Shown one piece after another: positions 21,391 through 27,096 of a stretch of 64,000 nucleotides of DNA. The stretch spans positions 3,534,001 to 3,598,000 of the forward strand of contig NZ_CP035494.1 in NCBI RefSeq assembly GCF_004135285.1, given 5' to 3'. Source of the DNA: Microbacterium protaetiae. Lineage in GTDB: Bacteria; Actinomycetota; Actinomycetes; Actinomycetales; Microbacteriaceae. How positions within the stretch are numbered: the first letter of the stretch is position 1; every line of letters starts with the position of its first letter. Below the pieces are notes generated by a model that was not told the origin of the DNA, searched no databases, and worked only from the letters and a program-made list of their open reading frames with translations. A program made the translations under genes and the position numbers.

Positions 21391-21935
21391 ACCTCAATGG
21401 CCCACGCCGATCCACCACGACCGACGACGAGAACACGGCTCCCGTCGAGCTGCCGCATGTCCTCGTGACCGTCGCCGAAGACGGCACCCTCGCCGCGATG
21501 GTCGATGGGACACCGTTCGCGTCGCCGGACGGGAGCGCTTGGACGCGGGCGACGTTCGGGCCGCTCATGGATGCCATCACCAAGGACCGCGCCATCGCAG
21601 TCCGGGTCGAGGTCCGCGAGAACGACGGCAGCGTCTTCACCGACATCCTCCGCACCCGCAAGCCCCGACGCGCAGCGGCACCGACCGAGAACCCGGTGCC
21701 GGAGACTCGTCGGAGTCGCCACGCCCGACGGATGCCGCGCTTGGCCGAGGTCACCGCGGGCGGGTTCGTCCCCGGCGAGGATGTCGCCGTCGCGACGATC
21801 GTCGCCCACACCGACGCCACCGGAACCGGCGAAACCCGGACGCTCATCGACCTCGACGACCTACCCGACGGCACACACGAGGTGATCCTGTTCGGACGTA
21901 TCTCGGGCACGCTCGCGGTGCGGCGGCTGACATGA
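21387..21935 (+). CDS. ICE protein of unknown function between VirB4 and VirD4 (182 aa)
   Basis: It starts in an ATGA overlap with the ATPase gene and ends in an ATGA overlap with the coupling-protein gene, so it is certainly translated with them. The first ~80 residues (LPHVLVTVAEDGTLAAMVDG then FGPLMDAITKDRAIAVRVEV) look like a small alpha/beta domain. A basic linker (TRRSRHARRMPR) leads to a C-terminal beta-rich segment with GFVPGEDVAVATIVAHTDAT. I do not recognise the family. Its place between the two transfer ATPases suggests an adaptor or substrate-recruiting factor. Confidence 0.7.
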   Translation: MNLNGPRRSTTTDDENTAPVELPHVLVTVAEDGTLAAMVDGTPFASPDGSAWTRATFGPLMDAITKDRAIAVRVEVRENDGSVFTDILRTRKPRRAAAPTENPVPETRRSRHARRMPRLAEVTAGGFVPGEDVAVATIVAHTDATGTGETRTLIDLDDLPDGTHEVILFGRISGTLAVRRLT

Positions 21936-23710
21936 ACCAGCGGCAAGCCGCGGGCATGGGCGACGAACTCACCAACGCCGCCCTCATCGGCCTGATCGGC
22001 ATGTTCGGCATCGCTCTCGCCCTCCGCGCAGCCGGCAGCGTCGCCGCGTTCCTCACCGGCACAGCCCAGCCCGACGCCGGCGCAGCGGCGGGGCTCGCCG
22101 TACTGTTCAACCCCGGCGATCCAGCGACCGCGCTCGGTGCCGACGGGCTCAATCCAGTCGTCTACTGGCTTGTCAGCACGGCACTGCTCGGCGGACTCGC
22201 TGCCGGGATCGTCTGGGTGTGGATCGTGCTGCGCCGCCACACGCGGAAGACAGAGACCGACCCGCACCGGCTCGCGGGGATCGCGACCAGCCACGAGGTC
22301 AAGACCGCCGCATCCGCGAAAGCACTGCTTCACCGCGCGGCCACGCTGCGGCCCTCCTTGGAGTCGCCAGCACTGCAGGATGTCGGCTACCTGCTCGGTG
22401 CCAGTCGTGGAACGAAGGTCTGGGCATCGGTCGAAGACTCGATCCTGCTGATCGGCCCGCCCCGCTCAGGCAAGGGCCTGCATGTCGTCATCAACGCGAT
22501 CCTCGACGCACCCGGAGCGGTCGTCACCACCAGCACCAGGCCCGATAACCTCACCGCGACCCTCCGCGACCGACGCCGCAAGGGCGGGCCGGTCGCCGTG
22601 TTCGACCCCCAACACCTCGCCGAGGGCATCCCCGCCGGGCTGCGCTGGTCGCCCATTCGCGGGTGCGACGACCCGCTGACCGCGATGATCCGCGCCAACG
22701 GCCTCGCCGCCGCCACAGGCCTCAGTGCTGGCGGGGTCGAGTCCGGCGGGTTCTGGGAGGGCAAGACCCGCACAGCACTCCAGAGCCTGCTGCACGCTGC
22801 CGCGCTCGACGGCCGCCAGCCGGCCGAGCTGTTCAGGTGGACTCTTGATCCCAGCGCGGCGTCGGAGGCCGTCGCGATCCTCAACTCGCACCCGAACGCC
22901 GCGATGGGCTGGGACGACTCGCTAGCCGCGATGATCGACGCCGACCCCAAGACCCGCGACAGCATCTGGCAAGGCGTCTCCCTCGCGCTCGCAGCCCTCG
23001 CCGACCCGCGCGTGCTCGATGCTGTCACGCCAGGACCGCACGAACACTTCGACCCCGAGACCTTCCTCACCGAACAAGGCACCCTTTACCTGCTCGCCAC
23101 CGGTGCCGGAGCGGGAGCCTCCGCGTCGCTGGTCGCGGCGTTCGTCGAAGACCTCATCGAAACCGCCCGCCGACTCGCGGCACGCTCACCGGGAGCCCGG
23201 CTCGACCCGCCGCTGTTGCTCGCGCTCGACGAGATCGGAAACCTCGCGCCGCTGCCGTCACTGCCGACGCTCATGGCCGAAGGTGGCGGCACCGGGATCA
23301 CGACCATGCCGGTCTTGCAGTCCCTCGCCCAGGCTCGCGACAGGTGGAGTGAGCATCAGGCCGGCGCGATCTGGGACGCCAGCATCGTCAAGATCATCCT
23401 CGGCGGCGCATCCAACAGCCGTGACCTCCAAGACCTCTCCACGCTCATCGGAGAGCGCGACGAGTACACCGACAGCGTGACCCTCGGCGACCACGGCACC
23501 CGCTCGAATCAGCGCTCGATCCGCCGCGTCCCGATCCTGCCGCCAGACCGCATCCGAACACTGCCGTTCGGCACCGGCATCACGATGCTGCGCTCTGCAC
23601 CGCCCATCGTCACCGACCTACGCGCCTGGCCGACCCGCCCCGACGCAGCGCAGCTCCGCACTGACCGCGACGAACTCGAAGCGCTTCTGCGCCACCGCCC
23701 CGCCTCCTGA
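21932..23710 (+). CDS. VirD4/TraG-type coupling protein (type IV secretion ATPase)
   Basis: This 592-aa protein starts at ATG 21932 (ATGA overlap). Two N-terminal transmembrane helices ([20 protein letters not shown] and VSTALLGGLAAGIVWVWIVL) anchor a TraG/TraD-like ATPase. Walker A is IGPPRSGKGLH, Walker B LLLALDEIGNLAPLPSLP, and ITTMPVLQSLAQARDRWSEH with SIVKIILGGASNSRDLQDLS are the typical C-terminal blocks of TraM-recognition-type VirD4. It brings the relaxase-DNA complex to the channel. No relaxase was found in the window, so its partner must be encoded elsewhere, probably left of position 1. Confidence 0.92.
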   Translation: MNQRQAAGMGDELTNAALIGLIGMFGIALALRAAGSVAAFLTGTAQPDAGAAAGLAVLFNPGDPATALGADGLNPVVYWLVSTALLGGLAAGIVWVWIVLRRHTRKTETDPHRLAGIATSHEVKTAASAKALLHRAATLRPSLESPALQDVGYLLGASRGTKVWASVEDSILLIGPPRSGKGLHVVINAILDAPGAVVTTSTRPDNLTATLRDRRRKGGPVAVFDPQHLAEGIPAGLRWSPIRGCDDPLTAMIRANGLAAATGLSAGGVESGGFWEGKTRTALQSLLHAAALDGRQPAELFRWTLDPSAASEAVAILNSHPNAAMGWDDSLAAMIDADPKTRDSIWQGVSLALAALADPRVLDAVTPGPHEHFDPETFLTEQGTLYLLATGAGAGASASLVAAFVEDLIETARRLAARSPGARLDPPLLLALDEIGNLAPLPSLPTLMAEGGGTGITTMPVLQSLAQARDRWSEHQAGAIWDASIVKIILGGASNSRDLQDLSTLIGERDEYTDSVTLGDHGTRSNQRSIRRVPILPPDRIRTLPFGTGITMLRSAPPIVTDLRAWPTRPDAAQLRTDRDELEALLRHRPAS

Positions 23711-23790: not shown

Positions 23791-24231
23791 ATGGCCATTC
23801 ACACCCAGGAATCGCTGTCAGGCTTCATCGCTTCGGAGCCGTTGCTCACCGAGACGGCAAAGGGAGACGCCAGGTTCTTCGCCCGTATCGGCAAGGAGCA
23901 CTTCCGCCGCGAGGACGACGGCTCGTTCACGCAGACCGAGACGACCTACCACCACCTGGTGATGTTCGGGCGTTCCGCTGAGCACGCGCACGCGAACTTC
24001 GCCCAGGGCGACAACTTCGTCGCCGAGGGCTACACGCGACCGGTCAACTACGAGCGCAACGGTCAGGCAATCGAGGGCGAAGAGTTCGTCGCCAAGAAGA
24101 TCGGCCACGACGCCGCGCGAACCCGCTACCAGGTGGATCGCACGCCGCGCAATGGAGTCGGGCGGGACGCAGCAACGTACGAGCCGACGCAGCGAGCAGC
24201 GACCGCGGCGCACGCCCCGGTCAGCATGTGA
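23791..24231 (+). CDS. ssb: Single-stranded DNA-binding protein, ICE copy
   Basis: This 146-aa protein has AGGAGGAGG nine bases before ATG 23791. An OB-fold SSB pattern is visible: FIASEPLLTETAKGDARFFA, YHHLVMFGRSAEHAHANFAQ, then DNFVAEGYTRPVNYERNGQA and EEFVAKKIGHDAARTRYQVD. The acidic tail that ends chromosomal SSBs is absent, so it may not recruit the usual SSB partners. Element-encoded SSBs protect transferred single strands in the recipient. The 80-bp leader holds a CACCTGCCTG-type motif also found before other transcription units of the element. Confidence 0.85.
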   Translation: MAIHTQESLSGFIASEPLLTETAKGDARFFARIGKEHFRREDDGSFTQTETTYHHLVMFGRSAEHAHANFAQGDNFVAEGYTRPVNYERNGQAIEGEEFVAKKIGHDAARTRYQVDRTPRNGVGRDAATYEPTQRAATAAHAPVSM

Positions 24232-24812: not shown

Positions 24813-25040
24813 ATGAGCCGCTATGCCAAGAAGACCGACCGTCGCCCGTACGAGGAGCGGTCGTTTTCCGTCCGGGCCGTCCACCGCGAGCGCGCCGACC
24901 TGCACAAGCTCGCCGAGGTTCTCATCCGGCTGACGTTGCAGGAGACCGGCGAGAGCCGCGCGGCCCGTGAAGCCGTGCGGGTGCCCGACACCTACCAGGC
25001 GGCTCCCGATGGCCTGGCCGCCTCTGAAGCCGCCCGGTAG
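24813..25040 (+). CDS. Small basic/helical protein next to the recombinase (75 aa)
   Basis: The frame starts at ATG 24813 or in-frame at ATG 24795; neither has a strong Shine-Dalgarno site. The sequence SFSVRAVHRERADLHKLAEV then LIRLTLQETGESRAAREAVR looks like a beta strand followed by two helices, and could be a ribbon-helix-helix-like or accessory protein. Such small genes commonly precede the serine recombinase in related elements, so a directionality-factor role is possible. Its stop codon TAG is part of the TAGAAT that may be the -10 of the recombinase promoter. Confidence 0.6.
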   Translation: MSRYAKKTDRRPYEERSFSVRAVHRERADLHKLAEVLIRLTLQETGESRAAREAVRVPDTYQAAPDGLAASEAAR

Positions 25041-25043
25041 AAT
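25038..25043 (+). promoter_or_regulatory. Candidate -10 element of the recombinase transcript
   Basis: TAGAAT lies immediately before the structured leader and overlaps the stop codon of the 75-aa gene. No good -35 hexamer is seen 17 bp upstream (TGGCCG at 25015-25020), so promoter strength is doubtful or needs an activator. Confidence 0.35.
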
Positions 25044-25221
25044 GAAACCTGCAAGCCTCGCGATGCGGGGTGTTGTGGCCTAAACCCCGCCGTTCGGCGG
25101 GCAACACGCACCGAGACCATCGGGTCTCGCCCTACAGCCTTCACCGGCTGCTCTCACGATCAACACCCCTCCCACCAACAGTGGGAGCGCGAGGGTCGAA
25201 CCGCGTGAGAGTGAGCCCCCG
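25044..25221 (+). ncRNA. Highly structured leader RNA upstream of the serine recombinase
   Basis: At least six stems fit within ~180 nt. CCTCGC/GCGGGG pair at 25056-25070. GTGTTG (25070-25075) pairs with CAACAC (25102-25107) and encloses CCCGCC-GTTC-GGCGGG (25086-25101). CGAGACC-ATCG-GGTCTCG forms a hairpin at 25112-25129, and CAGCC/GGCTG pair at 25135-25150. CTCTCACG (25151-25158) pairs with CGTGAGAG (25204-25211) around a CTCCCAC-CAACA-GTGGGAG hairpin (25169-25187). The last long-range stem includes the GAGAG that could be the ribosome binding site ten bases before ATG 25222, so folding could control translation. I recognise no known riboswitch family. The same DNA might instead act as recombinase-binding arms. 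Confidence 0.6.
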
Positions 25222-27096
25222 ATGACCACCATTGCCGACGATCCGGCAGCCAGCCTCATCGACCCGCCCAAGACTGCGGCTGCCGCCGTGTCCTACCTGC
25301 GAGTCTCGACCCGCGAGCAGGCAGAGAAGGGCGGCACCGACGAAGGCTTCTCGATCCCGGCCCAGCGCGAAGCGACCAGGCGCAAGGCCGAACAGCTCGG
25401 CGCCGGCATCGTCGAGGAGTTCGTGGACGCGGGAGCCTCAGCCAAGTCGTCCGACCGGCCCGAGCTGATGCGGATGATCCAGTACGTCAAGGCCAATAAG
25501 GTCGCGTACTGCATCGTTCACAAGGTCGACCGGCTCGCCCGCAACCGCGCCGACGATGTGAGCATCCACCTCGCACTCCAACAGTGCGGGGTGATGCTCG
25601 TGTCCGCGTCGGAGAACATCGACGAGACTCCTTCGGGGATGCTGCTGCACGGAATCATGTCCACCATCGCCGAGTTCTACTCCCGCAACCTCGCCACCGA
25701 GGTCGCCAAGGGCATGACGCAGAAGGCCATCGGTGGCGGCACGAACGGGCGCGCACCCATCGGGTATCTGAACGTCCGCAAGCGCGACGAGCTCGGGCGC
25801 GAAGTCCGCACCATCGAGCTCGATCCTGAGCGCGCACCGATGATCGAATGGGCGTTCAAGGCCTACGCCTCGGGCAACTGGAGCGTCAGCCAACTCCACG
25901 ACGAACTCACCTCGCGGGGGCTGCGCAGTCTGCCCACGCCGAAGAGGCCGGCGAAGCCGCTGGCCGTGTCCACCATCCACCGCCTCCTGACCAACCCGTA
26001 CTACAAGGGCGATGTCGTCTACCGAGGCACCCGCTACAAGGGCAACCACCCGGCGCTCGTGCCCGCCGAGGTCTGGTACCAGGTCCAGTCCGTGCTCACC
26101 GCGCACCAGTGCGCCGTCGAGGCAACCCAAGTCCACGGCCACTACCTCAAAGGCACCATCCACTGCGGCCAGTGCGGCTCCCGACTCATCGTCTCCAACG
26201 CGAAGAACCGCCACGGCAACGTCTACTGCTACTTCGTGTGCTCCGGCCGGCACTCCAAGCGCACCGACTGCACACGCCAGGCGATGCTCATCGAAGACGT
26301 CGAGAAACTCGTCGAGGACTACTACACCCGCGTCCAGATCACGCCCGCCCAGCAGGACGCGCTCGCGGGGATGCTCCACCACGAGTTCGACCGGCTCATG
26401 GCCGCCGAAACCGAGGAACTGGAACGCCTCACCACCAACCGCGACCGGCTCGAAAGCGAGCAGGACCGCCTCATGCAGGCGCACTACGCCGACGCGATTC
26501 CGCTCTCAGTGCTCAAGCGCGAACAGGACCGCATCGTCGCCGAACTCGACCAAGTGACCCGCCGCATCGACGCCCACTACGGCGACTACGCCGACGCCCG
26601 CTCCCACCTCGACGACGCGCTCGGTCTGCTCGCCAACTGCGCCGACATCTACACCCGGTGCGACGACACCAACCGGCGGCTGTGCAATCAGGCGTTCTTC
26701 ACCAAGGTCTTCATCGACGAAGACAACGAGCTGCGCGTCGAGCACAACCGACCCTTCGAGATGCTCCTCGATCCACAGGTCAACGCCAACGCGCTGACCT
26801 GGGCCGCAGACGCACACAAGGCCCGAACCTCAACCAACGTTTCCGTTGGCAAGGGTTCGAGCCTTGTGCGTGCGGTGGACCTGAGGGGACTCGAACCCCT
26901 GACCCCCTGCATGCCATGCAGGTGCGCTACCAGCTGCGCCACAGGCCCAGAATCGCTTCGAATCTCTCGAAGCAACCCGTTCAGATTACTACATTCTCCA
27001 GCACCGGCGAAATCGACCGATCAGCCGACGACGGCCGGCTGCACCTGCTCGATCGGCACCACCGGGCAGTCCTTCCAGAGCCGCTCGAGACCGTAG
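25222..27096 (+). CDS. Large serine recombinase (integrase) of the ICE; 3' end reads into the chromosome
   Basis: The N-terminal resolvase domain has the catalytic serine in AVSYLRVSTREQAEKGG, then KVDRLARNRADDV and SENIDETPSGMLLHGIMSTI. A recombinase domain (GTNGRAPIGYLNVRKRDELG, STIHRLLTNPYYKG) and a zinc ribbon (CGQCGSRLIV, YCYFVCSGRH, TDC) follow, then a coiled coil (residues ~400 to 460). The native protein should end near residue 540 to 560. In the integrated state the frame continues as the complement of tRNA-Ala (LRGLEPLTPCMPCRC) and into the antisense of rsfS, stopping at 27096. The part past ~26,870 is therefore att-junction-derived. It catalyses integration and, with a directionality factor, excision. 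Confidence 0.9.
   Translation: MTTIADDPAASLIDPPKTAAAAVSYLRVSTREQAEKGGTDEGFSIPAQREATRRKAEQLGAGIVEEFVDAGASAKSSDRPELMRMIQYVKANKVAYCIVHKVDRLARNRADDVSIHLALQQCGVMLVSASENIDETPSGMLLHGIMSTIAEFYSRNLATEVAKGMTQKAIGGGTNGRAPIGYLNVRKRDELGREVRTIELDPERAPMIEWAFKAYASGNWSVSQLHDELTSRGLRSLPTPKRPAKPLAVSTIHRLLTNPYYKGDVVYRGTRYKGNHPALVPAEVWYQVQSVLTAHQCAVEATQVHGHYLKGTIHCGQCGSRLIVSNAKNRHGNVYCYFVCSGRHSKRTDCTRQAMLIEDVEKLVEDYYTRVQITPAQQDALAGMLHHEFDRLMAAETEELERLTTNRDRLESEQDRLMQAHYADAIPLSVLKREQDRIVAELDQVTRRIDAHYGDYADARSHLDDALGLLANCADIYTRCDDTNRRLCNQAFFTKVFIDEDNELRVEHNRPFEMLLDPQVNANALTWAADAHKARTSTNVSVGKGSSLVRAVDLRGLEPLTPCMPCRCATSCATGPESLRISRSNPFRLLHSPAPAKSTDQPTTAGCTCSIGTTGQSFQSRSRP
26833..26848. repeat. Inverted repeat near the right attachment site
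   Basis: CCAACG-TTTC-CGTTGG is followed by a second small inverted repeat, CAAGG-GTTCGAG-CCTTG (26851-26867). Both lie within the end of the recombinase frame, directly beside tRNA-Ala. They may be recombinase-binding arms of attR or a weak terminator. Confidence 0.4.
26876..26948 (-). tRNA. tRNA-Ala (GGC), integration target
   Basis: On the minus strand the 73-nt sequence folds as a complete tRNA: acceptor GGGCCTG/CAGGTCC, a D-arm with GCGC stem pairs, anticodon stem CCTGC/GCAGG around a loop with GGC (Ala), and T-arm AGGGG-TTCGAGT-CCCCT. Discriminator A is at 26876 and CCA is not encoded. The gene is intact although the ICE recombinase gene abuts its 3' side, as usual when the element restores the tRNA end. 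Its promoter should lie at ~26,985. Confidence 0.95.

Follow-up and report, generated by a model that had tools for sequence, protein, structure and literature searches.

A putative pseudoknotted RNA leader upstream of large serine recombinase genes in actinobacteria

The window is the 64-kb stretch of Microbacterium protaetiae DNA analysed here. A leader of the type described below is found at positions 25044–25221, between a small open reading frame and a large serine recombinase gene that starts at position 25222. Resolvase, Recombinase and zinc-ribbon domains (Pfam) are all present in the predicted protein, which places it with the large serine recombinases. Transfer genes are nearby and a tRNA-Ala gene adjoins the 3′ side of the recombinase gene. 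The features of the locus are as follows.

21908–23710, TraG/VirD4-like transfer gene
23791–24231, SSB-like gene
24813–25040, small open reading frame
25038–25043, plus strand, TAGAAT, a conserved −10-like box bordering the leader on its 5′ side
25044–25221, leader
25222–26820, plus strand, homologous part of the large serine recombinase (Pfam Resolvase, Recombinase, Zn_ribbon_recom), the open frame continuing to 27096
26876–26948, minus strand, tRNA-Ala gene

The end of the mobile element probably corresponds to the 3′ end of the recombinase gene beside tRNA-Ala, approximately 1.6 kb away from the leader; upstream of the leader, the −10-like box is inside the element. The first-pass annotation had suggested that the leader might sense the state of the transferred DNA. 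This finds no support; the leader is poorly placed for sensing integration because the presumed element end is on the far side of the gene and the box is within the element.

The small open reading frame encodes 75 amino acids with the pattern R..V..R..PDL.KL (by eye) and has no match in Pfam or NCBIfam. The protein is possibly a directionality factor. By eye, it also appears to be present in three relatives that have no leader (L093, L096 and L165).

The TAGAAT box, noticed earlier at the 5′ end of the structured region, is conserved and is situated just 5′ of the range then given. In 73 of 80 related loci a TAGAAT-like hexamer precedes the start codon by 174–208 nt (one of the largest distances comes from L072, where the start codon is changed), and in 17 leaders of the more distant types C to G the distance is 138–203 nt. 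Among the hexamers listed there is none for L133 and L169, both of which have leader-like sequence; L158 was outside the set screened. The hexamer also turns up in two distant leaderless homologues, at 189 nt in L105 and at 133 nt in L110, which is presumably a coincidence. A consensus scan of positions 24950–25300 gave no −35/−10 promoter pair and no terminator, thus it is the conserved −10-like box that points to a promoter. An inverted repeat, CTACCAGGCGGC/GCCGCCCGGTAG, is located at positions 24992–25003 and 25029–25040 with one mismatch, and its right arm overlaps the −10 box. In several relatives the repeat has no mismatch. It is a possible operator.

A search through contigs from one genome per species yielded 247 relatives of the recombinase, and 80 of them were kept. 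The full leader is present upstream of 73 of these 80 genes, behind the TAGAAT-like box. Of the other seven, L051 and L052 lack the recombinase start, L029 is cut off by the end of its contig, and in L055, L067, L073 and L078 the 5′ half of the leader is replaced, as it also is in L152. One common coding-like sequence takes the place of the 5′ half and the −10 box in L067, L078 and L152, with stem c (see below) retained; read by eye, it is the end of a TIR-like protein. Propionicicella superfundia and Leucobacter soli have leaders identical to that of the window.

A covariance model of the core alignment, R1, scores the window at 111 bits. R1 has matches in 4 of 297 genomes of the order and in 3 of 394 genomes of the class (one of them weak), the window's own genome being included in both sets; a weak match in G784 has an E-value of 0.049. 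The strong matches are just upstream of recombinases of the window's family, and association of the leader with other genes was rejected on this basis. Comparison with Rfam 15 agrees with the earlier remark that no riboswitch of this layout was known before integrases, i.e. there is no match to the leader at gathering score, and the best sub-threshold match at E-values up to 10 is RAGATH-25 (E = 0.86, 13.4 of 49 bits). Leaders of eight relatives show no Rfam match at E-values up to 1, and the only gathering-score matches in the whole window are three tRNAs.

The plus strand of the leader has a predicted folding energy of −76.7 kcal/mol compared with a mean of −63.0 for dinucleotide shuffles (z = −3.4), and 1 of 200 shuffles was as good. 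The minus strand folds less well (z = −1.8, 10 of 200 shuffles as good). Since the plus-strand fold is rarely matched by shuffles, structure beyond chance is indicated. The strongly structured leader proposed in the first-pass annotation is thus borne out, with the arms it named present and 199 of 200 shuffles surpassed. The elements of the fold, all on the plus strand, are listed here.

25056–25062, 5′ strand of stem a, CCTCGCG, pairs with 25188–25194
25065–25070, GCGGGG, 3′ strand of an alternative 5′ hairpin P0, possible partner of CCTCGC at 25056–25061
25067–25075, 5′ strand of stem b, GGGGTGTTG, pairs with 25161–25169
25086–25101, hairpin P3, CCCGCC/GGCGGG
25112–25129, hairpin P4, CGAGACC/GGTCTCG
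25135–25150, hairpin P5, CAGCC/GGCTG
25151–25158, 5′ strand of stem c, CTCTCACG, within the loop closed by stem b, pairs with 25204–25211
25161–25169, 3′ strand of stem b, CAACACCCC, pairs with 25067–25075
25170–25186, hairpin e of the 3′ domain, TCCCAC/GTGGGA
25188–25194, 3′ strand of stem a, CGCGAGG, pairs with 25056–25062
25204–25211, 3′ strand of stem c (c′), CGTGAGAG, purine-rich, 11–18 nt before the ATG

Stems a and b enclose a domain with three hairpins and stem c reaches out of this domain. The order of strands, a b c b′ a′ c′, is predicted in the window and its relatives and is that of an H-type pseudoknot. The ribosome-binding sequence of the window itself is weak; the best one, AAGGA, is found just downstream of c′ in some relatives (L033, L037 and L042).

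Alignments A1, A2 and A3 were made without near-identical leaders; L053 and L056 were left out of A2, L054 out of A1 and A2, and L072 with its changed start codon out of A3. A2 contains 28 leaders of the window's type and A3 contains 21 leaders of the tRNA-His type. Covariation, which the first-pass annotation had named as the check on the stems, is present, and in all three alignments it exceeds both shuffled and slid controls. In the core alignment of 31 leaders both sides change at 13 pairs; shuffles give 6.1, and none of 500 reaches the observed number. Of its cells, 88.7% are paired compared with 33–52% for slid partners. In A2, 94.7% of the cells pair and there are 17 both-side-changed cells versus 3.7 in shuffles. 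The values for A3 are 95.1% and 17 versus 5.0, with further pair types in A3 not above shuffles (494 of 500 shuffles as high).

Stem a is paired in 98.5% of cells in A2, where four of its seven pairs are invariant, and in 87.4% in A3, where two pairs show both-side changes. Other complementary sequences occupy its position in types C and D. The long-range stem b is paired in 97.2% of cells in A2, with both-side changes at two pairs, and in 99.5% in A3. Stem c corresponds to the 8-bp long-range stem over the start region that had been pointed out before, and it is conserved: 98.7% of cells are paired in A2 and 98.6% in A3, where its sequence is a different one, GGCTCTTCTC/GAGAAGAGCC. Within A2 and within A3 stem c is near-invariant and the sequence differs between the two sets. 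The near-invariance in the window's sub-clade means that support for this stem comes from other leader types.

Hairpin P3 displays both-side changes in A1, A2 and A3. An inner pair of P4 is AU in 20, GC in 6 and GU in 2 of 28 sequences; its outer pairs are not universal and 81.6% of the helix cells are paired in A2. P5 is paired in 95% of cells in A2 with both-side changes at two pairs. Each pair of hairpin e is present in 19–25 of 28 sequences, and pair types vary, e.g. CG in 18 and GC in 5. P3 is one half of a nested element, GTGTTG/CAACAC with CCCGCC/GGCGGG, proposed in the first-pass annotation. The outer half, GTGTTG/CAACAC, is probably mispaired. Its arms are present at 25070–25075 and 25102–25107 and the local CAACAC partner can pair in 22–28 of 28 sequences of A2; however CAACA is absent at that place in all 21 A3 sequences and GTGTTG belongs to stem b. 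It was therefore rejected as a main helix.

Two further pairings compete with this fold. The pairs of P0 are each kept in 25–28 of the 28 sequences of A2, and P0 would exclude stems a and b because it shares bases with them. A possible helix d, GGCCT at 25077–25081 with GGGTC at 25193–25197, needs G-U pairs and overlaps stem a, and for these reasons it was left out of the fold in set A. If formed in the window, it would be one further crossing. In type H the corresponding helix is UGGUCCU/AGGACCA, with 94.5% of cells paired, and L062 and L064 have the longer GUGAUCCU/AGGAUCAC. The competing pairings (P0, and helix d in type H) may represent the two conformations of a switch, or else intermediates of folding.

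Inverted repeats beside an integrase gene could act as DNA, i.e. as a transfer origin or an accessory recombination site, and the transfer genes (TraG/VirD4-like and SSB-like), the tRNA gene and the presumed element end are all close enough to suggest this. However, at paired places of A2 and A3 there are 133 G-U cells compared with 21 A-C cells (40 versus 17 pair columns), which is unexpected for DNA hairpins. The excess of G-U over A-C argues for an RNA of the plus strand rather than DNA hairpins or a minus-strand RNA, and the DNA-hairpin reading was rejected on this ground. The weaker fold of the minus strand against its shuffles, and the fact that stem c ends near the start codon wherever it is assigned, also speak against a DNA site, which is considered very unlikely.

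A trans-acting product, either a guide or a small RNA processed from the leader in the manner of the IS110 bridge RNA or the IS200 5′tnpA RNA, would be in keeping with the compact fold and with the location upstream of a recombinase gene. Loops of the IS110 bridge RNA match target and donor DNA. No such match is seen at the one locus and one side compared here: the leader and the tRNA/attachment region (26821–26960) share a match of at most 7 nt on either strand, and this is equalled in 84 and 79 of 100 shuffles for the two strands. A best match at shuffle level gives no sign of a guide, and the guide-RNA reading was rejected. In addition, recombinases that are 98%–100% identical are found beside tRNA-Ala, tRNA-Val and tRNA-Lys with no variable guide stretch seen in their leaders, and no terminator-like site precedes the start codon. 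A trans-acting RNA is thus highly improbable.

Recombinases of about 47%–62% identity to that of the window, found in searches of the class and order, the window's own genome and viral contigs, carry leaders with little sequence likeness to it; phage and plasmid collections gave relatives below 60% identity only. The leader types assigned are as follows.

Type C, crossing order a, b, c: L092, L132, L133, L154–L156, L158–L160
Type D, crossing order a, b, c: L124, L161
Type E, crossing order b, c: L162
Type F, crossing order b, c: L164
Type G, crossing order b, c: L149, L167, L169, L171, L173, L174, L176

No stem a is assignable in types E, F and G. The strand near the start codon pairs upstream with sequences that differ by type, i.e. 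CGTGAGAG, GAGAAGAGCC, GGAAACACG, GGAAAGAGCA, GCGTCATG and AGGCGGTCAC. The conserved helix over the start region (stem c) is met with in types A, H, C, D, E and G with differing sequences. The stem c of type F is a helix drawn by eye that is no better than cross pairs.

L124 is a second recombinase in the window's own genome (G000:C1:156000–163000) with 56%–57% identity to the first. It has a type D leader and is beside a tRNA-Ala gene. The recombinase match, C1:158606–160141, has one in-frame TAG.

The recurring layout was also examined with a script that finds the best arrangement of three contiguous helices that cross, c′ being placed close to the start codon and no strands being chosen by hand. 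For 21 leaders of all types compared with shuffles the combined Fisher p is 1.3e-10, a generous value because leaders are related within types; 11 of the 21 have p ≤ 0.05 and seven have p > 0.1. Twenty leaderless homologues give a Fisher p of 0.61; L134, one of the leaderless members of the leader clade, has p = 0.059. The script chose the hand-assigned stem c in 15 of 21 leaders, the exceptions being L033, L056, L062, L162, L164 and L167, and all three hand-assigned stems in six (L005, L047, L058, L132, L154 and L156). In a swap test with one leader from each of ten subgroups, 0 of 20000 permutations matched the true partners for stem c or for stem b; since the strands had been picked for pairing, this is taken as supporting evidence only. 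Both energy tests used 22 leaderless homologues, of which L137 and L140 were left out of the layout script. When free internal loops were allowed, duplex energies failed to tell leaders apart from leaderless controls in these GC-rich sequences. With contiguous-helix energies, 3 of the 22 controls (L134, L168 and L140) also look structured, 10, 12 and 11 of 200 shuffles respectively being as good. The comparison of leaders establishes the stems, their predicted crossing order and their location over the start region.

The tree of 62 recombinases has a fully supported branch that separates 40 rows with a leader, together with five without, from the rest. Each leader type is one sub-clade, and the group labels, which were assigned by hand, need 7 changes, the least possible. 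Leader and integrase are thus inherited together. The leaderless members of the clade (5 of 45) are L093, L096, L134, L165 and L157. The simplest account would be one gain and two losses (L093/L096/L134/L165 and L157), with leader and integrase changing together. Named hosts in the tree span nine actinobacterial families.

Recombinases of at least 94% identity adjoin different tRNA genes. At 31 loci (L005–L014, L016–L031, L035, L038, L057, L059 and L090) the neighbor is tRNA-Ala in 21, tRNA-Val in three and tRNA-Lys in one, with none found in six. Relatives at 80%–90% identity are also found beside tRNA-Leu and tRNA-Arg, and type H is beside tRNA-His. The use of many tRNA genes seems unusual for a serine integrase. 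Targeting of tRNA genes as a property specific to leader-bearing integrases was rejected: a tRNA gene occurs in the retrieved sequence of 28 of 31 rows without an assigned leader, though sometimes at a distance from the recombinase, and the 31 include L175, whose upstream DNA is missing.

The leader is best read as a cis-acting 5′ RNA of the integrase mRNA, with a pseudoknot over the start region that would keep integrase translation low by default; a probability of roughly three in four is given to this reading. Transcription would begin at the TAGAAT box and produce a leader of approximately 170 nt. Stems a and b would close the domain with three hairpins, and strand c from inside the domain would pair with c′ next to the start codon to form the H-type pseudoknot. 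Because the pseudoknot would cover the start region, low translation of the integrase would be the default, and some event that releases stem c would allow translation. As a guess, feedback by the element's own integrase or the kinetics of co-transcriptional folding is placed ahead of a metabolite as the opener.

Autoregulation, where the integrase or another protein of the element binds the leader and locks or opens stem c in a feedback, is a possible but doubtful alternative. No leader type has moved between integrase sub-clades, which is what one would expect if leader and integrase bind each other and change in step, and the sequence turns over while the layout recurs. However simple genetic linkage gives the same pattern, and five integrases of the leader clade are leaderless. 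The small upstream protein is seemingly also there where the leader is absent.

A metabolite riboswitch appears improbable. Here the closed domain (a, b and P3–P5) would be a ligand pocket and the ligand would set whether stem c forms. Conserved unpaired motifs in types A and H (GG-T/C-CCTAAACC, GCAA and TAGTCCTACAG) are of the kind a pocket might use, and the competition of P0 with stems a and b, together with helix d of type H, suggests two states. By eye, however, types D, E, F and G lack these motifs even though the crossing layout recurs there. A ligand may still act in a single type. Further, the gene controlled is an integrase rather than a metabolic gene, and no Rfam riboswitch matches. 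A two-state switch in which P0 and the type H helix d alternate with a, b and c, read by the co-evolving integrase to set its own level, is rather unlikely. If it were true, a large serine integrase would use an RNA pseudoknot to govern its own level and with it how fast integration and excision proceed.

The cis-acting leader reading has parallels in known systems. Translation-controlling pseudoknots are found in the preQ1 and SAM-II riboswitches and in the S15 and alpha-operon leaders, where the crossing helix lies on or next to the ribosome-binding region. Unlike these, the present leader has a larger closed domain, precedes other genes and has no Rfam match. The transposase mRNA of ISPpu9 has a long 5′ untranslated region that folds over the ribosome-binding site; mutations that weaken the fold raised translation, and an antisense RNA helps to open it (PMC8450116). 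The likeness is a long leader of a mobile-element recombinase gene folded over a ribosome-binding site. However the element and host differ, and the abstract of that report mentions no pseudoknot (PMC8450116). The IS200 tnpA leader is another case of a fold over the ribosome-binding site in a mobile element, described as a stem-loop in a transposase mRNA (PMC12594629). Here a multi-stem pseudoknot is predicted instead, and the gene is that of a conjugative element's large serine integrase. The IS110 bridge RNA is likewise a structured non-coding RNA beside a recombinase gene (PMC11208160). It differs in the class of recombinase and in that the single locus compared here has no target-matching stretch. 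No description of a conserved pseudoknot leader on large serine integrases was found in searches of the open-licence literature.

Large serine integrases move conjugative elements and serve as genome-engineering tools. To our knowledge, the control of their synthesis is little described. The leader looks like a new actinobacterial RNA family whose members have evolved along with their integrases. The several sequence-unrelated versions of one layout amount to natural compensatory changes, and therefore the mechanism is directly testable. If the cis-acting reading is true, an RNA family absent from Rfam would hold integrase translation down in tRNA-targeting elements.
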